Shown in pieces: positions 4,316-35,045 of a stretch of DNA of 64,000 nt. Each line of letters begins with the position of its first letter. The stretch's first letter is position 1. A model generated the notes under the pieces. It was not told where the DNA came from. It worked only from the letters and a program-made list of their open reading frames with translations, and ran no database searches. A program made the translations under genes and the position numbers. The DNA is taken from contig NZ_CP030053.1 in assembly GCF_004114955.1 (NCBI RefSeq), positions 4,650,001 to 4,714,000 on the forward strand, read 5' to 3'. The DNA comes from Bradyrhizobium guangzhouense. Lineage in GTDB: Bacteria > Pseudomonadota > Alphaproteobacteria > Rhizobiales > Xanthobacteraceae.

Positions 4316-5197
4316 ATGGCGGTCCGCAGCAACATCGTCGGCATCGACAGCCCGGAGGCGCTGGAGAAGGCGCTGCGCGCAGCCTATTACCTCGCCGACG
4401 AGGGCCTTGCGACATCAGCCTATCTCGGCCTCGCGCTCGGCAAGCCTTTGCTGCTCGAGGGCGCGCCCGGCGTCGGCAAGACGGAAGCCGCGAAAGCCAT
4501 CGCCGCTGTGCTCGGCCGCCGTCTCATTCGCCTGCAATGCTATGAGGGCATCGACGCCTCCGCCGCCCTCTACGAATGGAATTACCCCCGCCAGATGCTC
4601 GCGATCCGCCAGGCCGGCGACGAGAGCATCGACATCTATGGCGAGACATTCCTGATCGAACGCCCCATGTTGGCGGCACTGCGTACGCCTGATTCCACCG
4701 TGCTGCTGATCGACGAAATCGATCGCGCCGATCAGGAATTCGAGGCGTTTCTGCTGGAATTCCTGTCCGATTTCCAAATTTCGATTCCCGAGCGCGGCAC
4801 CGTGCGGGCCGCCGAGCGCCCCGTGGTGGTGCTGACGTCGAACCGGACGCGCGACTTGCACGAAGCGCTTCGCCGCCGCTGCGTCTATCACTGGATCGAC
4901 TATCCGACCGAGGAACGCGAGGCGCGCATCGTGATGTTGCGCGCCTCCAGCGTTGCCGAAGCCACCGCGCGGGCCGTCGTCGCGGCGGTCGGCAAGCTCC
5001 GGCGCGAGCCGCTGAGCAAGGTGCCCGGAATCGCCGAGGCGGTCGACTGGGCGGAAGCCGCGACGTTGCTGCACAAGGGCGGGGCGCGTTGGCCCGACGC
5101 GTTCAAGCGCTCGATTGGCGTCGCGCTGAAGGACGAGGAGGATCTGCATTTCATCTCGCCCCGGCTGGACGCGATGCTCGCGGAGGCCACCGCATGA
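4316..5197 (+). CDS. MoxR-family AAA+ ATPase (CoxD-like)
   Basis: A 293-residue AAA+ ATPase with Walker A GAPGVGKT near residues 48-55 and Walker B LLIDEIDRAD, followed by a sensor-1 region VVLTSNRTRDLHEALRRR. In the cox operons of CO oxidisers, CoxD is a MoxR ATPase needed to mature the molybdenum-copper site. Related genes next to other molybdenum hydroxylases are thought to insert sulfur or otherwise finish the cofactor. It lies 12 bases after the large subunit and overlaps the VWA-domain gene by 4 bases (ATGA), the standard MoxR-VWA pair. Confidence 0.9.
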   Translation: MAVRSNIVGIDSPEALEKALRAAYYLADEGLATSAYLGLALGKPLLLEGAPGVGKTEAAKAIAAVLGRRLIRLQCYEGIDASAALYEWNYPRQMLAIRQAGDESIDIYGETFLIERPMLAALRTPDSTVLLIDEIDRADQEFEAFLLEFLSDFQISIPERGTVRAAERPVVVLTSNRTRDLHEALRRRCVYHWIDYPTEEREARIVMLRASSVAEATARAVVAAVGKLRREPLSKVPGIAEAVDWAEAATLLHKGGARWPDAFKRSIGVALKDEEDLHFISPRLDAMLAEATA

Positions 5198-6315: not shown

Positions 6316-7196
6316 CCGAGATTGTCGACGGCCATCATCACATCTGGCGGCAGGCCGACCTGCCCTGGCTGGTCGGCCCGATGCAACCGCGCATCTTCGG
6401 ACCCTACGAGGCCATCAGGCGCGACTACCCACTTCGCGAATATCTCGACGACCTCAAAGGCAGCGGTGTTAGCCGCTCGGTTTACGTCCAGACCAACTGG
6501 CCCAACGATCGTTTCGAGGACGAAGCGGCCTGGGTGCAGAAGACCGCCGACGAGCAGGGTTGGCCGCACGCCATCGTCGCCTATGCCAATTTCGCCGTCG
6601 ACGACGTTCGTCCGCAGCTCGACCGGCTGAAGCGCCATTCCCTCGTGCGCGGCGTGCGCATGCAGCTGCACTGGCACGAGAACCCGCTCTATCGCTTTGC
6701 GGCCAAGCCCGATCTGTGCATCGATCCCATGGTCCGCCGCAATGTCGCCCGGCTCGCCGACTACGGCTGGAGCTTTGATCTCCAGGTCTTCACGCCGCAG
6801 ATGCCGGACGCGGCACTGCTCGCCGAATCCTGCCCCAAGGTGACCTTCATCCTCCAGCATGCCGGCATGCTGGAGGATCTCTCGCCCGCAGGCCGCGCCG
6901 CCTGGCGCGCCGGCATGGCCCGACTCGCGATATGTCCGAATATCGTCTCGAAGCTCTCCGGGCTTGGCACCTTCATCCACCGCAACGATCCCGCGCATAT
7001 TGCCGCGGTGGTCATGGACACCGTCGCGATCTTCGGCGCCGAACGCTGCCTGTTCGGCTCCAATTTTCCGATCGAGAAATTGTGGACCAGCTATCGCGAG
7101 CTCGTTGACGCATTTCGCGCAGCAGCCGCGCCGCTGAGCGCCGAGCAACGGGATGCAATCTTCCGAGGCACCGCAACGCGCGTCTATCGGCTTTAA
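6312..7196 (+). CDS. Amidohydrolase-family protein (lactonase / 2-pyrone-dicarboxylate hydrolase type)
   Basis: 294 residues from a GTG that overlaps the CoxE stop codon. The N-terminus VDGHHHIW carries the metal-binding HxH of the amidohydrolase superfamily. Later come VRGVRMQLHWHE, a QVFTPQM segment, LQHAGM and FGSNFPIEKL, where the Asp of the more common FGSDYP is replaced by Asn. Closest families are L-rhamnono-lactonase-like and 2-pyrone-4,6-dicarboxylate-lactonase-like hydrolases. A role in opening a lactone or lactam made after the molybdenum hydroxylase step is inferred from position only. Confidence 0.82.
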   Translation: MTEIVDGHHHIWRQADLPWLVGPMQPRIFGPYEAIRRDYPLREYLDDLKGSGVSRSVYVQTNWPNDRFEDEAAWVQKTADEQGWPHAIVAYANFAVDDVRPQLDRLKRHSLVRGVRMQLHWHENPLYRFAAKPDLCIDPMVRRNVARLADYGWSFDLQVFTPQMPDAALLAESCPKVTFILQHAGMLEDLSPAGRAAWRAGMARLAICPNIVSKLSGLGTFIHRNDPAHIAAVVMDTVAIFGAERCLFGSNFPIEKLWTSYRELVDAFRAAAAPLSAEQRDAIFRGTATRVYRL

Positions 7197-22459: not shown

Positions 22460-25297
22460 GTGCCAGACAACAAACAAGACTCGGCCATCTCTTTTGGGCC
22501 ATTTCGACTGTTTCCAAAGTCTCGCCTCCTGGAAAAGGACGGCGCGCATCTTCACGTCGGCGGCCGCGCGCTCGACATCCTGATCTTCCTGGCCGAGCGG
22601 CCCGGCGAAGTCGTCGACAAGCGCGAGCTCGTCAAGCGTGTCTGGGCCGACGTGAATGTCGACGATGGCAGCCTCCGCTTCCACATCGCAGCCCTGCGCA
22701 AGGCACTCGGCGACACCGGCAAATCGGCCCGCTATGTCGTCAACGTCCCGGGACGCGGCTATTGCTTCGTTGCATCTCTCACCCAGCTCGCACCCGCACC
22801 TCCCGCGCCCCTGACCGACATCCCTCTGCCACGTTCCCTTCCCGCTCCGCTCGCGCGGGTGATCGGGCGCGACGACGTCATCGAGAAGATTGCGACCGGG
22901 CTGGCAACGCATCGCTTCGTGACGGTGGTCGGCCCCGGCGGCATCGGCAAGACTGCCGTGGCCGTGACCGTCGGCCATCGCCGGCTTGCACATTTCGACG
23001 GGCATGTGTTCTTTGTCGACTTCGGGCCGGTGAGGAAGCCGGAGCTCGCAGCAACCACCATCGCATCGACGCTCGGGCTGTCCATCAATGCGGAGGATCC
23101 GGTCCCGGCGCTGCTGACGCACCTCCAGACGAAACCGACGCTGCTGATCTTCGACAGCTGCGAGCACGTGCTGGAGACCCTTGCCCCGCTCGTCGAGCGC
23201 CTGGTTCGCGAAGTACCGCGATTGCATGTACTGGCGACCAGCCGGGAATCCTTTCGCAGCGAGGGAGAACGGATCTTCCGACTGTTTCCGCTCGATTGTC
23301 CGCCTCGGCGCGACGACCTCACCGTGCCCGAAATCCTCGCCTATCCGGCGGCCCAGCTCTTCATCGAACGAATTGCGCAGAGCTCCGGACCATTTCAGCT
23401 GAGCGCGGAAGAAGCACCGCTGGTGGCCGACATCTGCCGCCGCCTCGACGGTATAGCGCTCGCGATCGAGCTCGCCGCGGGACGCGTCAACGCCTATGGC
23501 ATCGCCGGCACGGCATCCCTGCTCGACAGCCGCTTTTCACTGCAATGGCGCGGGCGCCGCACGGCCATCCCGCGACATCAGACGCTCGGCGCCGCGCTCG
23601 ACTGGAGCTACGACCTTCTTCCCGCATCCGAGAGCGCGATCTTGCGGCGATTGTCCGTATTCGCCGGGCCGTTCACGCCGGAGGCCGCTGCCGCCGTCGC
23701 CTCGGGCGACGGACTCAGCGCCGCCGCGACCATGGAGGCGATCGACAATCTCGTCACGAAGTCGCTGATCGCACCGTCGGGCGCGCGAGCACTGCGCTAT
23801 CGCCTGCTGGATACAACACGCACCTACGCGTTTGGCAAGCTGAACGAGGCCGGCGAAGCGAAGCGGATCGCGCAGCGGCACGCCGAATATTTTCGCGATC
23901 TTTTCGAGCGCGCCGAGGCCGAAACATCCGCTCCACTGGCGGACTGGCTCGGTACCTATGGCGCGGAACTGGACAATCTGCGTGCCGCGATCGATTGGGC
24001 CTTTTCGGCCGATGGCGACACACAGCTCGGAATCGTGTTGACGGCGGTGGCCGTCACGCTCTGGATCCGCCTGTCATTATTTTCCGAGTGTCGCGAGCGC
24101 GCCAGGACGGCACTTGCGGCCCTCGCAGACCACGGCGACGAGCGCGTGCGCATGCAGCTCCTGGCAGCGCTTGGCTGGTCGCTGATGTATGGCGAAGGAC
24201 GGGCGCGCGAGGCCCGCCCGATCCTCGAAGCCACTCTCGAGCTGGCCGACAGGCTCGATGACAAGGATTTCCGCTTGCGGGCCCTCTGGGGCCTCTCCAT
24301 CGACCAATTCAACAACGGAGCGTTCGGCAAGGCACGCGCGCTGGCCGACCGTTTCGCCGAGGCCGCGGCGAATTCGGCTGACAAAACCGACCTCATGTTG
24401 GCGGACCGGCTCACGGCCGTCGTGCTGCATTATCTCGGCGACCAACGCGAGGCGCGCGTTCGAATCGACCGGGTGAATTCGTCGCTGCATGTGCTGGCTG
24501 AGAAGCCAAAGATCTTCCCGCTCGATCTGCGGATATCGACGCAGTATTTCCGCGCCCGCATCCTGTGGCTGCAAGGTCAGGCCGACCAGGCTCTTGCGCT
24601 TGCCGAGCAGAACATCCACGAAGGCCGCGCCAACGGCCACGCGCTGACCTTCTGCAGCGTGCTCGGACAAGCCGCCTGCCCGATCGCGTTCCTGGCCGGC
24701 GACTACGACGCCGCCGAGCGCTATGGCACCGAGTTGCTCGAGCATACCGATCGGCACGCGATCCGGCTCTGGGGCCTGTGGGCCCGTGCGTTCAACGCGC
24801 TGGTCGTCGCAAAGCGTACGGATGTCGAGACGGGTCTGCCGTTACTCCGCGACGAGCTCAATCGCGCCGGCGATGCACGCTTCCTGCCGCGATTTCTTCC
24901 ACTGCTCGGCGAACTCGCGGCGTGTTTCGGACAGGCGAGCCAGGTCCACCACGGCTTGGACGCGATCGAGAACGCGCTGGCGCGCTGCAACGACAGGCAG
25001 GAACGCTGGTATCTGCCCGAGCTGCTTCGCATCAAGGGCGAGCTGATGCTGAGGGAGTCGCCGCAATCGGAAGCCGCTGATGCCTGCTTTCACGAGGCGA
25101 TGGAGCTGGCGGCACAGCAAGGCGCGCACTTCTGGCAGCTGCGCTGCGCGATCAGCATTGCGCAGCTCGGGATCGGACGAGACCAGCGCACCGAAGCGCG
25201 CGCGGTTGTGGAGAAGGCATGCGGCGCCATGACTGAAGGATCCGGGATCGCCGATATGCGGATCGCGCGCGACCTGATCGCGCAATTGCGGGCATGA
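22460..25297 (+). CDS. Large regulator 1: OmpR-type winged helix + NTPase + helical repeats
   Basis: 945 residues from a GTG at 22460. Residues about 8-105 form an OmpR/PhoB-type DNA-binding domain (FGPFRLFPKSRLLEKDG, then RELVKRVWADVNVDDGSLRFHIAALRKALGD and GRGYCF). A P-loop NTPase follows (GPGGIGKT at 158-165, Walker B LLIFDSCEHVLE, then LATSRESFRSEGERIFRLFPL), like AfsR/LuxR-LAL-type STAND ATPases. The remaining 500 residues are TPR-like helices. Such proteins typically switch on ATP binding and a ligand or partner sensed by the repeats. The paralogue at 30191 has exactly the same length. The sequence WRVPD around the GTG is shared by both, so the real start could be further upstream. Confidence 0.88.
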   Translation: MPDNKQDSAISFGPFRLFPKSRLLEKDGAHLHVGGRALDILIFLAERPGEVVDKRELVKRVWADVNVDDGSLRFHIAALRKALGDTGKSARYVVNVPGRGYCFVASLTQLAPAPPAPLTDIPLPRSLPAPLARVIGRDDVIEKIATGLATHRFVTVVGPGGIGKTAVAVTVGHRRLAHFDGHVFFVDFGPVRKPELAATTIASTLGLSINAEDPVPALLTHLQTKPTLLIFDSCEHVLETLAPLVERLVREVPRLHVLATSRESFRSEGERIFRLFPLDCPPRRDDLTVPEILAYPAAQLFIERIAQSSGPFQLSAEEAPLVADICRRLDGIALAIELAAGRVNAYGIAGTASLLDSRFSLQWRGRRTAIPRHQTLGAALDWSYDLLPASESAILRRLSVFAGPFTPEAAAAVASGDGLSAAATMEAIDNLVTKSLIAPSGARALRYRLLDTTRTYAFGKLNEAGEAKRIAQRHAEYFRDLFERAEAETSAPLADWLGTYGAELDNLRAAIDWAFSADGDTQLGIVLTAVAVTLWIRLSLFSECRERARTALAALADHGDERVRMQLLAALGWSLMYGEGRAREARPILEATLELADRLDDKDFRLRALWGLSIDQFNNGAFGKARALADRFAEAAANSADKTDLMLADRLTAVVLHYLGDQREARVRIDRVNSSLHVLAEKPKIFPLDLRISTQYFRARILWLQGQADQALALAEQNIHEGRANGHALTFCSVLGQAACPIAFLAGDYDAAERYGTELLEHTDRHAIRLWGLWARAFNALVVAKRTDVETGLPLLRDELNRAGDARFLPRFLPLLGELAACFGQASQVHHGLDAIENALARCNDRQERWYLPELLRIKGELMLRESPQSEAADACFHEAMELAAQQGAHFWQLRCAISIAQLGIGRDQRTEARAVVEKACGAMTEGSGIADMRIARDLIAQLRA

Positions 25298-26778: not shown

Positions 26779-28092
26779 TCAAATCGACTGGCGGAGCGAG
26801 CGGAAGGCGGTGCGCACTTCCGCGCAGAACAGCACGGGCTGTTCCCACGCCGCGAAATGGCCCCCCTTGTCGAGGCGGTTGTAATGGATCAGCTTGGGAT
26901 AGGCCTTCTCGGCCCAGCTGCGCGGCGCGGCATAGATCTCGTCCGGAAACACGCTGACGCCGACCGGGATATTCACATGCTTGGGCGCGAAGAACGCCAG
27001 CTTGTTTTCCCAGTACAGACGCGCCGAAGACACCGCAGTGTTGGTGAACCAGTAGAGCGTGATGTTATCGATGACATCGTCGCGCGACAGTCCTTCGGTC
27101 TTGCCGTCGAAGGCTCGCGCAATCATTGCGGTACTGCGGGCGTCGTGGTCGAGCATCCAGGACGCCAGACCTGCCGGCGAATCGACGAGGCCATAGAGCG
27201 TCTGCGGCCGGTTCGACATCTCGATCGCATAGCCGAGGCCATGCTTGTAGAAATCGTCGAGCTGATCATAGGCGAGATTCTCGTCGGCCGTGAGGCCCGA
27301 CGGCTTCGCCCCACCGGGCTGGAGTGCCTTGGCGATGTCGTCTGGAACGGTCGCGGGCATATTGGTGTGAATGCCGAGCAATTCCGGAGGTGCCAGCAGC
27401 GCCATTTGCTCTGTGATCGCGTTGCCCCAGTCGCCGCCCTGCGCGACGTATCTGGTGTAACCGAGCCGCTTCATAAGCACGACCCAGGCCCGCGCAACAC
27501 GCTGTGGATCCCAGCCAAGCGCCGCAGGCTTACCGGAGAAGCCGTATCCGGGGAGCGAAGGGATCACCAGGTGAAACGCATCGGCTGCTGCTGCGCCATG
27601 CGCGGTGGGATCGCTCAGCGGACCGACGATCTTCATCTGCTCGATGATCGAGCCCGGCCAGCCATGCGTGACGATCATCGGCAACGCGTTGTCATGCTTG
27701 GAACGCACGTGGATGAAATGAATGTCGACGCCGTCGATCTCCGTGACGAATTGCGGCAGTGCGTTCAGGCGCGCCTCAATCTTGCGCCAGTCGTAGTCGG
27801 TCTGCCAGTAACGAACGAGCTGCTGGATGGTCGAGAGCTGCACGCCTTGCGACTGATCGGCCACAAATTCGCGATCCGGCCACCGCGTCGCGGCTAGACG
27901 GCGGCGCAGATCGAGCAGATCTTCCTCAGGCACGCTGACGTGGAACGGGCGGATTGCATCGCTTGCAGCAGCCTTTCCGGAATTTGCCGGAAACAGGCTC
28001 GCCGTGCCTGCGGCAACAGCTATCATCGCGGCTTGGCCCAACAATTGGCGGCGGTCCGGGTTTATGATGTCGGCTCGTGTCTGCGTTGTCAT
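26779..28092 (-). CDS. Epoxide hydrolase (EHN-type alpha/beta hydrolase) with Tat-like leader
   Basis: 437 residues from the ATG at 28092; the frame extends to 28182 but a GGGAGA site and a leader fit the shorter start. Residues about 14-45 (DRRQLLGQAAMIAVAAGTASLFPANSGKAAA) look like an export signal. The EHN domain follows (RPFHVSVPEEDLLDLRRRLAATRWPD), then the hydrolase core with HGWPGS (oxyanion), GGDWG holding the nucleophilic Asp, and the C-terminal GGHFAAWEQP carrying the His. It opens epoxides to diols. A four-box phased repeat lies about 100 bases upstream. Confidence 0.9.
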   Translation of the reverse strand: MTTQTRADIINPDRRQLLGQAAMIAVAAGTASLFPANSGKAAASDAIRPFHVSVPEEDLLDLRRRLAATRWPDREFVADQSQGVQLSTIQQLVRYWQTDYDWRKIEARLNALPQFVTEIDGVDIHFIHVRSKHDNALPMIVTHGWPGSIIEQMKIVGPLSDPTAHGAAAADAFHLVIPSLPGYGFSGKPAALGWDPQRVARAWVVLMKRLGYTRYVAQGGDWGNAITEQMALLAPPELLGIHTNMPATVPDDIAKALQPGGAKPSGLTADENLAYDQLDDFYKHGLGYAIEMSNRPQTLYGLVDSPAGLASWMLDHDARSTAMIARAFDGKTEGLSRDDVIDNITLYWFTNTAVSSARLYWENKLAFFAPKHVNIPVGVSVFPDEIYAAPRSWAEKAYPKLIHYNRLDKGGHFAAWEQPVLFCAEVRTAFRSLRQSI

Positions 28093-28192
28093 CTCGCATC
28101 TCCCTGGCTGCGGTCTCATGACGTTCACCGAAATTCGAAATCGACAGATCGGTTCGTCCTTGATGTAGATTGGCTCAGGCATCGGCCATTGG

Positions 28193-28230
28193 CTCGTTAT
28201 GGATTGTTAGAGCGCGTTAGCGGTTGCGAG
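28193..28230 (-). promoter_or_regulatory. Phased direct-repeat operator, site A (epoxide hydrolase promoter)
   Basis: On the plus strand four pentamers start exactly 10 bp apart: GTTAT at 28196, GTTAG at 28206, GTTAG at 28216 and GCGAG at 28226, preceded by GCTC. Read toward the minus-strand gene they are CTCGC, CTAAC, CTAAC, ATAAC. The end of the site is about 100 bases upstream of the epoxide hydrolase start. Tandem sites with one-turn spacing are what OmpR-type winged-helix proteins bind. Confidence 0.65.
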
Positions 28231-28358
28231 TTGTCGTGCCGCAGGATCGAAGGGGGACGACGGATGATCACCGCAAGATGCGTCGGTGCAGACGCATGAC
28301 GGCGCGCGACCGGCTATCGCGCGCCGTCAATCGCGATCCAACCAGCTACGGCCGTGCA

Positions 28359-29048
28359 TCAGGTCGGCAGTGGCTGGCCGGCCTGCTCGCGGACGATGTA
28401 ATCGGCGTACCAGTCCGGCCAGTTCTCGTCGTGTCCGCCGGTCCGCTTCTCGTGCTCGCCATGCGCCGCTGCCGCGCGCCGCAGAGCGCCTGCAAGTTCG
28501 CCGGATGAGGTGAACGTGGCGTCCGTCGCCTCGATGCGGCCAGGCAGCCGCGTGGTGATTTCCTGAAACAGCCAGCCGTTGCCGTCCGGATCTCTGAAGG
28601 AGGCAAACGAGCTGTAGCTGCCGCGTTTGGGATCAGCACCGTTGAGCCTGATACTGCCGAACAGATACGGCTCGTCCGCGCCGGCGTGGACGTCGCCGCC
28701 GCCGTGGAAGGGTTCGCTGATCTCGACGCCGCGCGCGAGCAGATCCTGCCGTGCGGCGTCAAGGTCCGAGACGATCAGATACAGGCCTTGCGCCGAACCG
28801 GGCACCGCCGATGTGACGTTCTTGCCGAAGATCACCGAGCAGGCCGAGCCCGGCGGCGTGAACTGAATGACGCGCCAGCCGTCGGCAGAGGCGAAATCGG
28901 CATCCAGGCGCCAACCGAGACTCGCATAAAATGCCTTGGCCCGATCCACATCCGATACGGGAATCACGACAACCTCGAGCTTGAGGTCGACGGCACGCGA
29001 TTTCGCCGGCTTGGCGCCGGCTGGGTGATTCATCTCGGCGGCGGTCAT
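28359..29048 (-). CDS. VOC/glyoxalase-fold protein
   Basis: 229 residues. The core (about 22-165) has the glyoxalase/bleomycin-resistance pattern: LEVVVIPVSDVDRAKAFYASLGWRLDAD, GLYLIVSDLDAARQDLLARGVE and SFRDPDGNGWLFQEI. A C-terminal extension of about 55 residues, with WPDWYADYIV, is present. Family members act on or sequester small electrophiles, or serve as dioxygenases; the substrate cannot be told from the sequence. A phased-repeat site (B) lies about 80 bases upstream, linking it to the epoxide hydrolase and kinase genes. Confidence 0.85.
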   Translation of the reverse strand: MTAAEMNHPAGAKPAKSRAVDLKLEVVVIPVSDVDRAKAFYASLGWRLDADFASADGWRVIQFTPPGSACSVIFGKNVTSAVPGSAQGLYLIVSDLDAARQDLLARGVEISEPFHGGGDVHAGADEPYLFGSIRLNGADPKRGSYSSFASFRDPDGNGWLFQEITTRLPGRIEATDATFTSSGELAGALRRAAAAHGEHEKRTGGHDENWPDWYADYIVREQAGQPLPT

Positions 29049-29130
29049 GTCGAACTCCCTGGTTTGAGATACGGGCTCGGCACCGAGACCGTTTGTGACA
29101 CCACGAGTTTCGCGCAGACGATGGAATAAT

Positions 29131-29169
29131 GCTCGCTATCGGTTGTTATGCTTCGTTAGCGAATGTGAG
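29131..29169 (-). promoter_or_regulatory. Phased direct-repeat operator, site B (VOC-protein promoter)
   Basis: Plus-strand pentamers GCTAT at 29135, GTTAT at 29145, GTTAG at 29155 and GTGAG at 29165 are spaced exactly 10 bp and preceded by GCTC, as in site A. Read toward the minus-strand gene they are CTCAC, CTAAC, ATAAC, ATAGC. The site is about 82 bases upstream of the VOC start and lies just after the stop of the histidine kinase gene. Confidence 0.65.
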
Positions 29170-29179
29170 CGCCACTTCC

Positions 29180-29854
29180 TTACGCTGCAGGGAGCGGCAT
29201 CGCGATGGTGACACGTGTGCCGCCCCGCCCGGCTTCGCCATGCATCCGGGCACAGATGCTGCGCGCGAGGCCTTCCAGGATCCGGCTGCCGGCCCCTTGA
29301 AGCGGTGCGGTCGCGCCGACGCCATTGTCAGCCACCGCGCAGAGCCAGCTGCCATCGCGATTCACAACCTCGATGCGGATCAGCGCGCCGTTTTTGCTCG
29401 GAAAGGCATGCTTTGCCGCATTCGTGACCAGCTCCGTCAGCATCAGCGCGAGCCGGTGACACTGCCAAGCCGGCAGCGTACCGTTTTCGATCGAAGCCTC
29501 GCAGCGGATGCCGGCCGGCTCCAGCACCGCTTCGGAAAGCGCGCCACACAATTTTTCGAAGAAGGCCTCAACGGGGATATCCGAGAGATCGTCATTGTCG
29601 GACAAGAGTTGATAGAGCCTGCCGAAGGCGACGATCCGCCGCTCCAACCGGTCCACCGCACCGGACATGTCTCGGCCTCCGGCCCGCGTGAAGTCGCGAC
29701 GGACTGACGCACCCAGCAGCGTCAGCGTATTCTTCATCCGATGGTGCGATTCGCGCAGCACCAGTTCCCAGTCACGCGAGACGTCATCCGGATTGCTGAC
29801 GACATGCGATCGAACACCCTTGTCGTTCGGCCGAGCGCTGATATCGGGCATCAT
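29180..29854 (-). CDS. Soluble HWE/HisKA_2-type histidine kinase without sensor domain
   Basis: 224 residues. The dimerisation/phosphorylation region LRESHHRMKNTLTLLG has the phospho-acceptor His (probably H38) in the HWE/HisKA_2 pattern. The ATPase domain has the N box LTELVTNAAKHAF and G box VADNGVGA. There is no PAS, GAF, receiver or membrane segment, so the input must come from a partner protein. No response regulator gene is adjacent. Kinases of this type in alphaproteobacteria often feed the general stress response (PhyR). The gene lies between two phased-repeat sites. Confidence 0.88.
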   Translation of the reverse strand: MMPDISARPNDKGVRSHVVSNPDDVSRDWELVLRESHHRMKNTLTLLGASVRRDFTRAGGRDMSGAVDRLERRIVAFGRLYQLLSDNDDLSDIPVEAFFEKLCGALSEAVLEPAGIRCEASIENGTLPAWQCHRLALMLTELVTNAAKHAFPSKNGALIRIEVVNRDGSWLCAVADNGVGATAPLQGAGSRILEGLARSICARMHGEAGRGGTRVTIAMPLPAA

Positions 29855-30190
29855 AGCCTCCCCATTGGAAATAGGCCTAACTCGAAGCCTATACTGATGC
29901 AGACCCGCCGCTCACGCTCGTTAGACGTTGCAAGATTGTGTTATGATTGCAGGGCACGTCACAATTCCAAGCCATGCCAAAAGCATCGCCCTGAAGCGGC
30001 CTGCTGAATTTTCCCGCTTCCCGGATAAGCCGTTCGCGTTTAAACAAAATTCGCAGCATTTGATCCCAACGCTTTCGACCCGGTCCCATGCCCGTTGCTC
30101 GATTTCGCCGCTTTCGGCCGGTTTACTCGCTGTAACGTTCTGCTAGATCAAACAGACAGCAGCTCTTTCCTTTCGCTGGAACCGTGGCGC
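29855..30190. other. Divergent intergenic region between the histidine kinase and regulator 2
   Basis: This 336-bp gap has no supportable gene. It holds phased-repeat site F near the kinase and an AT-richer stretch around 30035-30060 with the palindrome GTTTAAAC. An in-frame ATG at 30095 could extend regulator 2 by 32 residues, but the paralogue lacks a matching extension. Confidence 0.6.
29916..29944 (-). promoter_or_regulatory. Phased direct-repeat operator, site F (histidine kinase promoter)
   Basis: Plus-strand boxes GTTAG at 29920, GCAAG at 29930 and GTTAT at 29940 are spaced 10 bp and preceded by GCTC. Read toward the minus-strand kinase gene, CTTGC is followed 10 bp later by CTAAC, exactly as in site C. 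Compared with sites A and B the two central boxes are missing, so this is a shorter site. It ends about 62 bases upstream of the kinase start. Confidence 0.5.
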
Positions 30191-33028
30191 GTGCCGGACA
30201 CTAACGACCAGGACTCAGCCATTTCCTTCGGGGCCTTCCGGCTGTTTCCGCGGTCCAGGCTGCTCGAAAGGGATGGCGTGCCGCTGCATCTCGGCGGCCG
30301 GGCGCTCGACATCCTGATCTTTCTCGCCGAGCGCGCCGGCGAGGTCGTCGACAAGAGGGAATTGGTCAAGCGGGTCTGGGCCGACGTGAATGTCGATGAG
30401 GGCAGCCTGCGGTTTCACATCACCTCGCTTCGCAAGGCGTTGGGCGATGCGGGCGAAGGCTCCCGCTACGTCGTCAACGTGCCTGGCCGGGGCTATTGCT
30501 TCACGGCGCCGCTGCTCCGTGCGGCACCTGCGGAGATCAGAACAGGCGCGGCTGCTTCCTTGCTTCGCTCCCTCCCCGCCCCGCTTGCGAAGATGATCGG
30601 CCGCGACGACGCGGTCGAGAAGATCGCAAACGAACTATCCCTGCATCGGTTCGTCACCATCGTCGGCCCCGGCGGTATCGGCAAGACCTCCGTCGCGCTC
30701 GCGGTGGCGCATGGCCAGCATGCGGGTTTCGAGGGTCAGGTCTGCTTCGTCGATTTCGGCGCACTGACCGACCCGCAGCTCGTTCCTGGCACGATCGCCG
30801 CCGCCCTTGGCCTGACCGTCAGTTCCGGCGACCCGCTACCCGGGTTGCTCCAGTCGCTGCGCAGTCGCCGGATGCTGCTGGTGTTCGACAGCTGCGAGCA
30901 TATCATCGACGAGCTTGCGCCCCTGGCAGAACGCATCGTCCGGGAAGCTCCCGAGTTGCATCTTCTCGCCACCAGCCGCGAATCCTTCCGCACCGAAGGC
31001 GAACGGGTTTACCGGCTGTTTCCGCTGGATTGTCCGCCACAACGCGACGGACTGAGCATGGCCGACGTCCTTGCCTATCCGGCGAGCCAGCTTTTCGTCG
31101 AACGCATCGCCGACAGCTTGAGCGAATTCGAACTCAGTGAAGAGGACGCGCCTCTCGTCGCCGATATCTGCCGGCGCCTGGACGGCATCGCGCTCGCGAT
31201 CGAGCTTGCCGCCGGACGGGTCAACGCCTACGGAATCGCCGGCACGGCCTCGCTGCTCGACAGCCGCTTCTCGCTGCTTTGGCGGGGACGCCGCACCGCT
31301 ATACCCCGGCACCAGACGCTGAGCGCAGCGCTGAGCTGGAGCTACGATCTTCTGCCCGCGGCAGAGAGCGCGACCTTGCGCGGATTGTCGGTCTTCGTCG
31401 GACCATTCACGCTGGAAGCGGCGCTCGCCGTCGCCGCAAGTCAGGGCATCGACGAGGCCGAGGCGGTCGAGACCATCTCCAATCTGCTGTCGAAATCTCT
31501 CATTGCGACGTCGCCTGCGGAACGCCGGCTGAGGTACCGCCTGCTCGACACGACCCGCGCCTTTGTCGGCGACAAGCTCGTCGAGAGCGGCGAATCGGCC
31601 CGCGTCGCGCGCGCCCACGCCGAATATTTCCGCGACTTCCTGCACGACATCTCCGTGAAATCGACGGGCATGCAGAGCGCGGGCGGCTTCCTGCCCTATG
31701 CCGATCATTTGCCGAACGTGCGGGCCGCGCTGACGTGGAGCTTCTCGGAAAGCGGCGACCGCACGGTCGGCGCGGACCTGGCCGCGTCAGCCGCGCAGTT
31801 CTTCCTCGAGCTGACCTTGCTGACGGAGTGCCATAGCTGGACCCAGCAGGCACTCGCTTCCGCCGAGGCACTCGACGGCCGCAAGGAAATGACCTTGCAA
31901 GCGGCTCTCGGCGTCTCCGTGATGTTCACGCAAGGCAATACGGAGGGAGTCCGATCGGCGTTCACGCGAAGCCTGCAACTGGCCGAGGAACTCGACGATC
32001 TGCACTGGCAGCTCTGGCTGCTCCGCGGGCTCCACATCTACCTGACCCGGGTCGGGGATTTTCACGGCGCGCTCGGCACCGGCGAACAAGGCCAAGCCGT
32101 CGCGAGGAAGCTGAACGACCCGACCAGCACACTGAACGTCGAGTGGATGCTGGGCGTGGCCCATCATCTGATCGGCAACCAGGACAAGGCCGTTCAGTTC
32201 TGCGAGAGCGCGATGGTGGACAATCCGGGTTCACAGCGGCTGAATATTGGCCATCTCGGCTATGACGACCGTATCGTTGCGCTGGTCGCTTTGGCGCGGG
32301 GGCTCTGGCTCAGCGGCCGGCCCGATCGCGCCATCGAGGCGGCGCGATACACCGTGAAAGAGGCCGAGCAGCTCGAGCAACCCCTGACGCTCGGCATTTC
32401 CCTGATCTGGACCATCTACGTGTTTCTCTGGGTCGGTGACTGGACCAGCGCCGAGAGCTTGATCGAGCGGCTGATCGACCACGCCGCGCGGCACTTCCTC
32501 GGCCCCTATCACGCCGTCGGCATCGGCCAGAAGGGAGAGCTCCTGCTCCGCCGCGGGGATATCGCCGGCGGTATCGAGCACCTTCGCCGCAGCCAGGCGA
32601 CCTTGTATGCCACGCGGCACCGGATCATGACGACGGTGTTTGCAACGGCGCTCGCGGAGGGACTTGCGGCTCAGAACCAGGTCGATGAGGCGTTGCGCAC
32701 GATCGATGAAGCCATCGCCCAGATCGGCGATCACGGCGAATCCTTCGACATGCCGGAAATGCTCCGGGTCAAGGCGGACATCCTGGTGCAATCCACCCGG
32801 GCGACGGAAGCTGAAGCCTGCCTCCAGCAATCGCTCGCCTTGTCGCGCCGCCAGTGCGCGCGCGGCTGGGAGTTGCGGGGCGCAATGAGCCTGGCTCGCG
32901 TCTGGCTGCAGGCTGGTCGAAAGGGCGACGCCCAGGCCCTGCTGGCGCCGCTCCTTGCGCACTATCAGGAAGGCCTGTCGAGCCGCGATCTGGTCGCCGC
33001 CAGGGCGCTGCTGAGCGCCCTGAATTAG
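30191..33028 (+). CDS. Large regulator 2: OmpR-type winged helix + NTPase + helical repeats
   Basis: 945 residues from the GTG at 30191, the position equivalent to the start of regulator 1. The N-terminal winged helix (RELVKRVWADVNVDEGSLRFHITSLRKALGD) and the NTPase (GPGGIGKT; LLVFDSCEHIIDE; LATSRESFRTEGERVYRLFPL) are very close to regulator 1. The C-terminal TPR-like half has diverged much more, suggesting the two bind similar DNA but respond to different inputs. An in-frame ATG at 30095 would add 32 residues. The two copies lie 4.9 kb apart in the same direction, with the stress genes between them. Confidence 0.88.
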   Translation: MPDTNDQDSAISFGAFRLFPRSRLLERDGVPLHLGGRALDILIFLAERAGEVVDKRELVKRVWADVNVDEGSLRFHITSLRKALGDAGEGSRYVVNVPGRGYCFTAPLLRAAPAEIRTGAAASLLRSLPAPLAKMIGRDDAVEKIANELSLHRFVTIVGPGGIGKTSVALAVAHGQHAGFEGQVCFVDFGALTDPQLVPGTIAAALGLTVSSGDPLPGLLQSLRSRRMLLVFDSCEHIIDELAPLAERIVREAPELHLLATSRESFRTEGERVYRLFPLDCPPQRDGLSMADVLAYPASQLFVERIADSLSEFELSEEDAPLVADICRRLDGIALAIELAAGRVNAYGIAGTASLLDSRFSLLWRGRRTAIPRHQTLSAALSWSYDLLPAAESATLRGLSVFVGPFTLEAALAVAASQGIDEAEAVETISNLLSKSLIATSPAERRLRYRLLDTTRAFVGDKLVESGESARVARAHAEYFRDFLHDISVKSTGMQSAGGFLPYADHLPNVRAALTWSFSESGDRTVGADLAASAAQFFLELTLLTECHSWTQQALASAEALDGRKEMTLQAALGVSVMFTQGNTEGVRSAFTRSLQLAEELDDLHWQLWLLRGLHIYLTRVGDFHGALGTGEQGQAVARKLNDPTSTLNVEWMLGVAHHLIGNQDKAVQFCESAMVDNPGSQRLNIGHLGYDDRIVALVALARGLWLSGRPDRAIEAARYTVKEAEQLEQPLTLGISLIWTIYVFLWVGDWTSAESLIERLIDHAARHFLGPYHAVGIGQKGELLLRRGDIAGGIEHLRRSQATLYATRHRIMTTVFATALAEGLAAQNQVDEALRTIDEAIAQIGDHGESFDMPEMLRVKADILVQSTRATEAEACLQQSLALSRRQCARGWELRGAMSLARVWLQAGRKGDAQALLAPLLAHYQEGLSSRDLVAARALLSALN

Positions 33029-33062
33029 AAGCGTCTTCAACGGGATACCGCAAAATCGCTCT

Positions 33063-33087
33063 CTTGCAACTCCTAACAACTTCTAAC
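33063..33087 (+). promoter_or_regulatory. Phased direct-repeat operator, site C (upstream of the 33147 gene)
   Basis: CTTGC at 33063, CTAAC at 33073 and CTAAC at 33083 are spaced exactly 10 bp on the plus strand; the fourth position (33093) is not conserved. The site lies 35 bases after the stop of regulator 2 and ends about 60 bases before the start of the next gene, in the same orientation relative to it as the other sites. Confidence 0.6.
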
Positions 33088-33146
33088 ACGCCAAGCCGCC
33101 CGCGCCCCGCCATGGTGACGACAATTCATGGTGGATGCAGTGAGAC

Positions 33147-33854
33147 ATGGCACTTCTTGACGATGCGATCGACGCCTGCGGGGGACTGACCCGCTGGAAC
33201 AGCTTGAGCCGGTTCACTCTGCATCTGTCCGTCGGCGGCAGTCTGTTTTCCGACGCCGGACATGCCCGCGAATTCAAGGATGTGACTGCGGAGGGATCGA
33301 CGCGCACACAATCGGTCCGCTTCACCGGAATCACCGGTGGCGAGCAGTCCGGCGCCTTTCAGGCGGACGCGATCACGATCGAGAGCCTGGATGGCCAGGT
33401 ACTCCGGACCTGGCGAAACCCGAGCCTGGCCTTCCCGACCAATGGCACACATGCGCTGGCGGACGAACTGCATCTGGTGTTGTTCTGCGGCGTCCAGATC
33501 TGGAACTATCTCACGACCCCGTTCCTTCTCGCCCGGCCCGACGTCGTCGTCGAGGAGCTGCCGCCATGGCAGGAGAACAGCGAAACGTGGCGATGCCTTC
33601 GCGCGCAATTCCCGTCGGGCCTCATCAACCTGGCCTCGGAGCAGGTCTTCTATTTTGACGAGAACGCGTTGCAGCGGCGAACCGACCACGATCTCCTGGG
33701 GGCGCGCGTCGCGCACTATTCGTGGGCCCACGAGAATTTCTGCGGCATCGTAGTGCCAACCCTCCGACGCACGCTGACGCGACAGGCCGATGCAACGGTG
33801 ATCGCCAAACCCGTGCTGATCGACGTCGAGATCTTCGATGCCGTCTTTGAGTGA
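33147..33854 (+). CDS. Conserved-looking protein of unknown function
   Basis: 235 residues; I do not recognise a family. It begins MALLDDAIDACGGLTRWNSLSRFTLHLSVGG, a pattern seen in beta-rich lipid-binding-like proteins where a short helix precedes a long sheet. Repeated alternating strands follow, with conserved-looking Trp and Tyr residues (IWNYLTTPFLL, SWAHENFCGI). No signal peptide, membrane segment or catalytic motif is visible. The coding call rests on length, codon pattern and a promoter-like gap with phased repeats upstream. It may be part of the stress regulon inferred from those repeats. Confidence 0.7.
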   Translation: MALLDDAIDACGGLTRWNSLSRFTLHLSVGGSLFSDAGHAREFKDVTAEGSTRTQSVRFTGITGGEQSGAFQADAITIESLDGQVLRTWRNPSLAFPTNGTHALADELHLVLFCGVQIWNYLTTPFLLARPDVVVEELPPWQENSETWRCLRAQFPSGLINLASEQVFYFDENALQRRTDHDLLGARVAHYSWAHENFCGIVVPTLRRTLTRQADATVIAKPVLIDVEIFDAVFE

Positions 33855-33920
33855 CCAATAAGTCCCTGACATATTGGTTCAAGTTGAAGCCGCTGCAATC
33901 GACCGCGGCATCCGATCCAC

Positions 33921-33955
33921 CCCACACAATCTAACAGATCCTAATCACCCCTAAC
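33921..33955 (+). promoter_or_regulatory. Phased direct-repeat operator, site D (AraC-gene promoter)
   Basis: Four boxes start exactly 10 bp apart on the plus strand: CCCAC at 33921, CTAAC at 33931, CTAAT at 33941 and CTAAC at 33951, followed by GGGC where sites A and B have GAGC. The site ends about 97 bases before the AraC-family gene, with the same orientation toward its gene as the other sites. Confidence 0.65.
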
Positions 33956-34052
33956 GGGCGTCCGAGCCTGCTCAGGCCTATCCTGTCAGCATGCCGAGGA
34001 TGCGAGTCCACCGGTCCTCGTGAACGACCGTGCAGCCCAGAGGGAATAAGCG

Positions 34053-35045
34053 ATGCTGACCGAATTGCAGAGGGCCCACGCCCGGATCAATCTTCCGGCA
34101 GGTTCCGGGGATCACGAAGCGCCTCGCGCGGCCCAGGCGATCGCCCGGGAACGCGAGTGGCGCCAGATCGCTTGCGGCGCGCAGCCCGCGCTGGACGACA
34201 TCACGATCTCGCGGTGGGAGGATTCGCGTGCGGCATCCTGGCACGTTGCGACGACGCCGTCAGATCGATATTTCGTCGGCATTGCGCTGAAGACGACGCG
34301 TGCGATCCTCACCAGGGACCGCCGGGTCATCTTCGACGGCACCATGCCATCGGGCACGCTCTATGTCAGCGCGCCGACGCGGCAGCTGAGCGCACAGTTC
34401 CAGACGCCCTGCGCCTTTCTGCACCTTCACATCTCCGCCGAGCATTTCCCGACGCAGTGGTCCGCAGCCGCGGCCGAAGGTCTCGACGATTTGATTCTGC
34501 TGCGCGATCCGCTCGCTGCGGGACTGGCCAGAGCGCTCGCCGAGCAAGGCGACGCTGCGGGACCTCAATTCGCGCATTGCATCGGACAGATTCTTGCGAT
34601 GCATCTGACTCGGCCCGAATTGCCGCGCGCCAAGGTCAATGCCTTGCCGAAATGGCGCCTGCGCCGCGTCGAACAGCATATCGCCGCTCATTTCGAACGC
34701 AGCATCAGCCTGTCCGAGCTCGCCGGCGTCGCGGGCCTTTCCAGGATGCATTTCGCCGCGCAGTTCCGTGCAGCGACCGGATATCGTCCGCGCGAATACC
34801 TGCTCAATCATCGCATCGAGCAGGCGAAGTCCCTGTTGACGAGGACCGAGAGACCATTGGCCGAGATCGCACTTGCCGTCGGCTTCAGCACTCAGGCGCA
34901 CTTTTCGACCGTCTTCAAGCGCATCAGCGGCGAAACCCCGGCGCGCTGGCGTGCGGCCAGCAGGAACCACCGGCCTGACGTTGAAGCGCTGCCACGACGA
35001 CGTCCATCATGGGATCAGGACCACATCGTGAGCACGGCCGCATGA
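34053..35045 (+). CDS. AraC-family transcriptional regulator
   Basis: 330 residues. The C-terminal 100 or so residues contain two helix-turn-helix motifs of the AraC/XylS family (LSELAGVAGLSRMHFAAQFRAATGYRPREYL and LAEIALAVGFSTQAHFSTVFKRISGETPARWR). The N-terminal 200 residues form a ligand or dimerisation domain without a recognisable specific signature. It should bind DNA directly and respond to a small ligand. The upstream phased repeats suggest that it is itself a target of the large regulators. A strong terminator follows. Confidence 0.9.
   Translation: MLTELQRAHARINLPAGSGDHEAPRAAQAIAREREWRQIACGAQPALDDITISRWEDSRAASWHVATTPSDRYFVGIALKTTRAILTRDRRVIFDGTMPSGTLYVSAPTRQLSAQFQTPCAFLHLHISAEHFPTQWSAAAAEGLDDLILLRDPLAAGLARALAEQGDAAGPQFAHCIGQILAMHLTRPELPRAKVNALPKWRLRRVEQHIAAHFERSISLSELAGVAGLSRMHFAAQFRAATGYRPREYLLNHRIEQAKSLLTRTERPLAEIALAVGFSTQAHFSTVFKRISGETPARWRAASRNHRPDVEALPRRRPSWDQDHIVSTAA

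Follow-up and report, generated by a model that had tools for sequence, protein, structure and literature searches.

A 10-bp phased CTAAC repeat as the putative operator of two winged-helix, STAND-like, TPR-type regulators in Bradyrhizobium

This study concerns a repeat of CTAAC-type pentamers with a period of 10 bp, which stands in front of five genes in a 64-kb window of the Bradyrhizobium guangzhouense genome (by the window we mean the whole stretch of DNA analysed), and its relation to two regulators of 945 residues encoded in the same window, Reg1 and Reg2. The nearest architecture to theirs is that of AfsR, one of the large SARPs of Streptomyces. According to the available part of PMC10936776, these proteins unite a winged helix, a nucleotide-binding oligomerisation domain and TPRs in one chain, AfsR contacts sigma and RNA polymerase through its BTA domain, and the operators are tandem direct repeats, 11 or 22 bp apart, lying over the -35 region of promoters with a poor -35, the 3′ repeat being 8 bp from the -10. 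Reg1 and Reg2 resemble them in the probable combination of domains and, from the predicted promoters, in the tandem repeats over a poor -35 region. Unlike the large SARPs, they have no detected BTA domain, their period is 10 bp, and the last box ends 23 bases before the predicted -10 hexamer. An earlier note on this DNA had likened the repeat to the 10-11 bp period of winged-helix operators; the 10 bp was borne out, the 11 bp of the SARPs was not.

MalT carries its DNA-binding domain at the C terminus, as a LuxR-type helix-turn-helix, whereas that of Reg1 and Reg2 is an N-terminal winged helix. What the two appear to share with MalT and the other STAND activators is an ATPase core and TPRs presumed to be the sensor, and multimerisation on activation is the general model for this group in the available part of PMC6468293. 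The winged helix is similar to those of CadC, ToxR, HilA and PhoB, but the remainder of both proteins appears to be ATPase and TPR, with no receiver found. We would class Reg1 and Reg2 with neither the SARPs nor MalT; they probably work like a STAND activator provided with an OmpR/CadC-type reader. In the same genus, the EcfF regulon of B. japonicum also comprises stress genes and uses a GTAAC element, but the EcfF promoter has one box and a CG(t/a) -10, and none of the five target types of the window appears in the part of its target table that was available (PMC3420878). The literature covered, mostly from outside the subscription journals, holds no description of this motif or of the operator, targets or signal of these regulators.

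The phased repeat and its predicted promoters

Reading the genomes alone, we consider it very likely that the repeats are the operators of Reg1 and Reg2, and that the two proteins act as one-component activators on class II-type promoters. This was already the proposal of the earlier note as regards the operators, and it is supported by the conservation of the sites, by their co-occurrence with the regulators and by a link to the recognition helix.

When both strands of the window were scanned for three pentamers matching CTAAC at 12 or more of 15 positions with a period of 10, eight registers were found, every one of them within the sites called A, B, F, C and D (Table 1), and the other periods from 6 to 15 gave one match altogether, at period 13. 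Counted as clusters these are 5 sites, where 200 simulated first-order Markov sequences contain 0.1 on average and never more than 1. The five sites lie exactly where they had been reported, in the reported orientations and with the reported first boxes (CTCGC, CTCAC and CCCAC in A, B and D; CTTGC in C and F), and the scan adds no other. The GAGC or GGGC trailer given for A, B and D is likewise correct, F having GAGC and C having ACGC. All five sites face their gene in the same way, and the distance of about 60-100 bases claimed between the last box and the start codon was measured as 59 (C), 65 (F), 86 (B), 97 (D) and 103 (A). The value for A is counted from the ATG at 28092, the position at which homologues of the epoxide hydrolase begin and probably its true start, rather than from the open-frame ATG at 28182; with the latter it would be 13. 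The predicted -10 of promoter A (28167-28172) falls within the longer frame.

The expected excess over random DNA holds within the window (5 versus 0.1) but does not extend to the bare pattern genome-wide. Indeed, CTAACN5CTAACN5CTAAC with at most three mismatches is found at 36 places of the genome and its reversal at 172, a count that is uninformative because the reversed pattern is the commoner of the two. What is unusual is the clustering in the window, the conservation and the fixed -10, not the number of bare patterns.

The promoter geometry was read from a pool of 116 sites aligned on their last box, 88 of which remain below 75% identity. The pooled sites have the repeat unit CTAACAACNY and the 3′ end (C/A)TAACG(A/G)GCAAA, and they share a single sharp downstream element, yAnnnT, whose A (82%) and T (85%) are four bases apart. 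In the 88 sites this element begins 23 bases after the last box, and there is no conservation 14-15 bp after the box. With identity cut-offs of 75, 60, 50 and 45%, the A..T pair stands at this offset in 71/88, 35/49, 14/24 and 8/17 sites, whereas the other offsets average 2.4, 1.4, 0.9 and 0.6. If yAnnnT is a sigma70 -10, the boxes fall at about -60, -50 and -40 (and -70 in the four-box sites), the spacer measures 17 bp, and GAGCAA covers -35 to -30. A sigma70-like -10 at such a fixed spacing places the last box, with the GAGC that follows it, over the -35 region. The layout predicted from these positions would be that of a class II activator promoter, with a box over the -35 and a sigma70-like -10 at a fixed distance from it.

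Across the 8.14-Mb genome, a relaxed two-box pattern gave 16 matches and its reversal 56, more diverged sites escaping the patterns used. Six of the 16 are distinct promoters with both -10 bases, namely A, B, C, D and two remote ones, and two more are upstream registers of A and B; none of the other eight places has both -10 bases. Promoter F likewise fits the -10 geometry and brings the set to seven. The remote promoters precede a SoxC-type sulfite dehydrogenase (481.9 bits for a cut-off of 420) and a MOSC/FAD/NAD/ferredoxin fusion (MOSC-ferredoxin-reductase), so the idea of a regulon gains two members past the cluster. Among the seven promoters, identity is 78% in the boxes, 39% in the spacers, 31% in the region before the -10 and 100% at both -10 bases. 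Two other places were missed by a second pattern and dropped as targets: one at C1:1978189, the other by a PAS-GGDEF-EAL gene at C1:2848006 and without the trailing RNGC.

Conservation of the sites and co-occurrence with the regulators

Sixteen stretches were taken from relatives, 11 of which hold the orthologous island (L065-L074 and L076), and a site was counted from 12/15 matches upward. Site A is kept in 8/8 stretches with a called epoxide hydrolase, site F in 11/11 covering it (the kinase gene itself is uncalled in L074), site C in 10/10 covering it, and site D in 7/7 with a called AraC gene; the alignments show flanks that drift and boxes that stay. The check on orthologous promoters suggested by the earlier note therefore succeeds throughout for A, F, C and D, but not for B, which is present in only 4 of the 10 orthologous loci having the glyoxalase. 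In one relative (G026, L076 17534-17802) Reg2 is missing precisely from between F and C, so that 141 bp separate the two operators, and Reg1 is kept nearby.

We scanned 146 genomes for CTYRCAANNNCTAACNNNNNMTAAC with at most one mismatch, in counts that ignore phylogeny, and found it in 67 (195 sites, compared with 22 for the reversed pattern). As had been anticipated, the matches track orthologues of the regulators: all 50 genomes with a Reg2 of at least 70% identity have the motif (165 sites; reversed 6), versus 10 of the 85 remaining genomes with neither Reg1 nor Reg2 (13 sites; reversed 16). It is found in six of the seven genomes that have only a Reg1-like protein at 49-51% (16 sites; reversed 0), one of these seven, G032, being counted as such with a helix LRVH that probably marks another subfamily. 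Of four genomes with a Reg2 at 65-66%, one has the motif, and two of the negative ones (G061, G104) have sites at the orthologous positions in which the first box has diverged. Sites persist in six genomes in which no Reg2 was found (G026, G033, G070, G089, G109, G130), and seven Reg2 genomes have no Reg1 of at least 49% among the matches listed (G018, G084, G095, G141, G153, G159, G163, the last holding a partial 57% Reg1 match in L172); either regulator alone appears to suffice for the persistence of the sites. One site, which G077 and G155 have next to a frame apparently resembling ribosomal protein L28, was treated as probable chance.

The two remote promoters were also followed in other genomes. 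In 40 upstream stretches drawn from the MOSC matches listed, with a threshold of at least 13/15, the site precedes 13 of the 20 homologues whose genomes have Reg1 or Reg2, the more closely identical ones, and none of the other 20, whose genomes lack both regulators or hold a diverged Reg2. It is also carried by the own gene and by six additional loci. The negatives are homologues at 54-70%, probably paralogues, and the seven misses in the positive set are homologues at 59-72%. For SoxC, 27 homologues of at least 82% identity were listed and 24 used, all in genomes with Reg1 or Reg2; three 88% copies (G000, G060, G112) and six copies at 72-80% were left out of the set. A site of 12-14/15 precedes 24/24 of these homologues, 19 of them printed with both -10 bases in register, and it is absent from 6/6 examined homologues at 77-80%. 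The MOSC data are those of a conserved remote site, not a clean test in trans, and the same holds for SoxC.

The regulators and a residue of their recognition helix

The open frame of Reg2 begins at 30095, and its homologues align from the GTG at 30191. Both regulators have an N-terminal PF00486 domain (Trans_reg_C; 59 and 59.2 bits for a cut-off of 26.2). The NACHT, NB-ARC and nSTAND models match both of them from about 35-50 residues after the winged helix, all below their cut-offs, and TPR models match Reg2 above and Reg1 below the cut-off. Thirty aligned proteins show little or no variation in GPGGIGKT and in an LLVFDSCEH-type motif. At E 0.001 no BTA domain (BTAD) was matched after the winged helix of either regulator and no C-terminal LuxR-type DNA-binding domain was matched by Pfam, the one found being N-terminal; a receiver is not among the Pfam families matched. 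By sequence, the nearest solved DNA-binding domains are those of CadC (5ju7), ToxR (8b4b) and PhoB (1gxp), and the NCBIfam models of CadC, HilA and PhoB match the winged helix, all far below their cut-offs. In an AlphaFold2 model, the order of strands and helices fits that of an OmpR-type domain, for which a four-strand sheet, three helices and a C-terminal hairpin are expected; residues 70-83 form the recognition helix, and helical repeats begin at 469. The model is weak, with a mean predicted local distance difference test score (pLDDT) of 69 and low values in the winged helix, at about residues 51-140, and in parts of the ATPase. Between Reg1 and Reg2, identity falls from 83% in the winged helix to 68% in the ATPase and 27% in the remainder. 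The organism-named entries among the 120 closest Reg2 homologues listed are all Bradyrhizobium, and the family is large, with at least 7986 homologues scored and as many as 16 full or partial matches in one genome.

Reg1 and Reg2 would combine an OmpR/CadC-type winged helix with a STAND-type ATPase and a TPR sensor. Winged helices placed head to tail may cover the three or four CTAAC(AA) boxes at about -70, -60, -50 and -40, with cooperative binding by the oligomerising STAND proteins. The last box and its G(A/G)GC(AA) would replace the -35, 17 bp from the sigma70-like -10 (yAnnnT), and from that place the bound activator could recruit RNA polymerase to promoters without a usable -35. Since the two proteins appear to share an address and have diverged sensor regions, two signals may switch on one gene set, perhaps by way of an ATP-driven oligomerisation like that of other STAND proteins. 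We infer binding, activation and oligomerisation by Reg1 and Reg2 from these sequence comparisons, and the types of the targets suggest electrophile, sulfite or oxidative stress as the inducer. In Bradyrhizobium, bacteria of soil and root nodules, the same genes of detoxification type are predicted to be under the control of two proteins that sense differently.

The family offers further subfamilies on which the link between helix and repeat can be followed. Next to Reg3-type genes, 18 of 20 upstream stretches carry CTCACAAN3CTCACAAN3CMAAC, likewise with a period of 10 bp; the two without it (L153, L160) have helices unlike Reg3 and were set aside after the misses had been seen. This variant motif is present in 60/146 genomes, and its reversal in 0. 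Reg3-type repeats stand upstream of another gene, without the targets of the window in the stretches examined, and 18/18 of them keep the A of the -10 pair at its usual offset. Loci from other genera of the bacterial family (L183, L186, L192, L195) have further repeat variants.

In 54 regulator loci (the gene and 1.5 kb on each side; CT[AC]AC repeat of at least 13/15; L057-L060, with C-terminal matches only, excluded), a helix reading LRF[HQ] goes with an adjoining period-10 repeat in 24/28 cases and with none at periods 8, 9, 11 or 12. With other or unextracted helices the repeat is found in 0/26 loci, or 0/20 without the six helices that the script could not extract. Leaving out the Reg1 and Reg2 orthologues, the comparison is 9/12 versus 0/26, L195 being a weak case with a poor first box. 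In the PhoB register, the position concerned is a residue of the recognition helix. In a family tree of 33 of the 34 chosen proteins, several branches that are separate from one another have phenylalanine, and three of these have operators; one such protein, L045, has as its nearest relative in the tree L046, with valine and no CTAAC-type repeat. A de novo search for period-10 repeats near regulators with other helices gave no clear excess over other periods. Two valine-helix loci hold a single candidate each, a TTAAACG-type 10-bp repeat at L046 about 4878-4912 and a CTTTAC-type one at L051 about 1245-1276, which as a group are not above chance.

We lean, with modest confidence, toward a wider reading for Bradyrhizobium and its bacterial family: lineage-expanded winged-helix/STAND/TPR activators would use a private class of promoter (10-bp CT(A/C)AC boxes and GAGCAA at the -35), its read-out being set by the phenylalanine of the helix (LRF[HQ]; valine in box-less relatives), gained on at least three branches, and paralogues would swap sensors on one regulon. 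If this is true, the activator family would behave like a set of plug-in sensors through which different signals reach one regulon. What the finding provides is an operator with its promoter geometry, a regulon of seven promoters and a rule from residue to box that can be tested.

Rival binders and points against the proposal

AraC proteins can bind tandem half-sites, and the AraC-type regulator downstream of site D has a site in its own promoter and sits in the same island, which makes it the foremost of the local factors that could bind the boxes in place of Reg1 and Reg2. However, no close AraC orthologue was found in five genomes (G018, G033, G106, G159, G169; best E 1e-18 to 1e-24), in six others the island copy matches only C-terminally (G087, G029, G145, G130, G089, G086), and all eleven keep 1-8 sites, with distant full-length homologues in some of them, such as G145. 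In the stretches examined, moreover, the Reg3-adjacent repeats stand without the window's targets. AraC is dispensable for site retention in these eleven genomes and was rejected as the binder; we judge binding by a local factor of this kind very unlikely. About as improbable is a different winged-helix/STAND/TPR member as the main binder. One candidate is a further type, Reg4, which is 37-40% identical and lies within the same island in G102 and G033; its helices read LRFH, and G102 has four sites with a 39%-identical protein as the only regulator in the stretch examined. Yet the sites follow the presence of Reg1 and Reg2, and the own genome has no other full-length member of the family among the matches listed.

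The element could also be the promoter of an alternative sigma factor of the extracytoplasmic function (ECF) type such as EcfF of B. japonicum, which regulates MsrA genes and has a motif similar to a single box, GTAAC(g,a)-N14-15-(c,t)CG(t,a) (PMC3420878, available part). An MsrA gene is present in the window. The same part of that source reports a putative epoxide hydrolase, bll3418, as H2O2-induced, which for the epoxide hydrolase of the window is a lead only. What is conserved here is three or four phased boxes and not one, and an element, yAnnnT, 23 bases after the box with nothing at 14-15 bp; in addition, the available part of Table 3 of PMC3420878 lists no epoxide hydrolase, glyoxalase, kinase or AraC gene among the EcfF targets, and the words AraC, histidine kinase, glyoxalase and sulfite are absent from its main text as available. 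The EcfF promoter was rejected on these grounds, and we hold it to be highly improbable. The least credible of all is a mobile or chance repeat without function. Simple repeats can spread, and the bare pattern is not enriched genome-wide, but the spacers are unrelated between promoters where boxes and -10 agree, the position is fixed relative to the -10, and the orthologous sites are conserved.

Several observations weigh against Reg1 and Reg2 as activators at these promoters. The bare patterns are rarer across the own genome than their reversals (36 against 172; 16 against 56), and the window scan found no site of this type before Reg1. Site B is missing from 6/10 of its orthologous loci; in those loci, transcription from promoter F might run through the neighbouring kinase gene into the glyoxalase. 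The TPR matches of Reg1 and the ATPase matches of both proteins stay under the Pfam cut-offs. Co-inheritance of the island explains part of the co-occurrence, as most sites share a gene island with the regulators, and the remote MOSC and SoxC tests are confounded, because the homologues in genomes lacking the regulators are mostly paralogues, not orthologues. In G102 there are four good sites, with only the 39%-identical regulator in the 20 kb examined; G156 and G016 (89% complete) have a site with no Reg1 or Reg2 found; and no Reg3 gene was found in the own genome, though a Reg3-type operator is kept there. In the Reg3-type sites the T of the -10 pair is in place in 0/18, 4/28 LRF[HQ] loci are without an adjacent repeat of at least 13/15, and the rule on the helix residue was spotted only after the data were seen. 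The exceptions (G102, G156, the incomplete G016, the Reg3-type operator without Reg3 and the lack of a site before Reg1) do not contradict binding by the family; operators outlive their regulators or are shared between them.

Target genes and neighbouring features

The features discussed are collected in Table 1.

Table 1. Positions of regulators, repeat sites, predicted -10 hexamers and target genes (window coordinates unless a locus is named)
Feature	Position	Strand	Details
Reg1	22460..25297	+	945 aa; winged helix (Trans_reg_C), STAND-like ATPase, TPR-like
Reg2	30191..33028	+	945 aa; winged helix (Trans_reg_C), STAND-like ATPase, TPR
Site A	28196..28230	-	CTCGC, CTAAC, CTAAC, ATAAC every 10 bp, then GAGC; 5′ of epoxide hydrolase
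Site B	29135..29169	-	CTCAC, CTAAC, ATAAC, ATAGC, then GAGC; 5′ of glyoxalase-fold gene
Site F	29920..29944	-	ATAAC, CTTGC, CTAAC, then GAGC; 5′ of HisKA_2/HWE histidine kinase
Site C	33063..33087	+	CTTGC, CTAAC, CTAAC, then ACGC; 5′ of 235-aa protein gene
Site D	33921..33955	+	CCCAC, CTAAC, CTAAT, CTAAC, then GGGC; 5′ of AraC-type regulator
Predicted -10, promoter A	28167..28172	-	CAATCT; A at +25, T at +29 after last box
Predicted -10, promoter B	29106..29111	-	GAAACT
Predicted -10, promoter F	29891..29896	-	CAGTAT
Predicted -10, promoter C	33111..33116	+	CATGGT
Predicted -10, promoter D	33979..33984	+	TATCCT
Epoxide hydrolase, target gene	26779..28182	-	EHN + Abhydrolase_1 (Pfam)
Glyoxalase/bleomycin-resistance fold protein, target gene	28359..29048	-	
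HisKA_2/HWE histidine kinase, target gene	29180..29854	-	PhyK similarity far below cut-off
235-aa protein, target gene	33147..33854	+	no Pfam or NCBIfam match at E 0.001
AraC-type regulator, target gene	34053..35045	+	
Reg4-type gene, G102	L162 9516-12368		only regulator seen in 20 kb examined, among four CTAAC sites
Reg4-type gene, G033	L074 9149-12067		

The HisKA_2/HWE kinase, with a site in its promoter, is short (224 aa) and weakly PhyK-like, and a link to the general stress response is possible. A second SoxC-like gene of the own genome (C1:590386-591609) is 88% identical to the target SoxC and has no adjoining match to the own-genome pattern. The perfect Reg3-type operator of the own genome (C1:6773795-6773819, minus strand, which is L161 about 6795-6819) precedes a gene with 84% identity to the neighbour of Reg3 in G021, and the product of this gene looks like an alpha/beta hydrolase exported by twin-arginine translocation (Tat). 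In other genomes, the genes behind sites of the CTAAC type include a second epoxide hydrolase, a DJ-1/PfpI-like protein and a Dps-like protein, among others.

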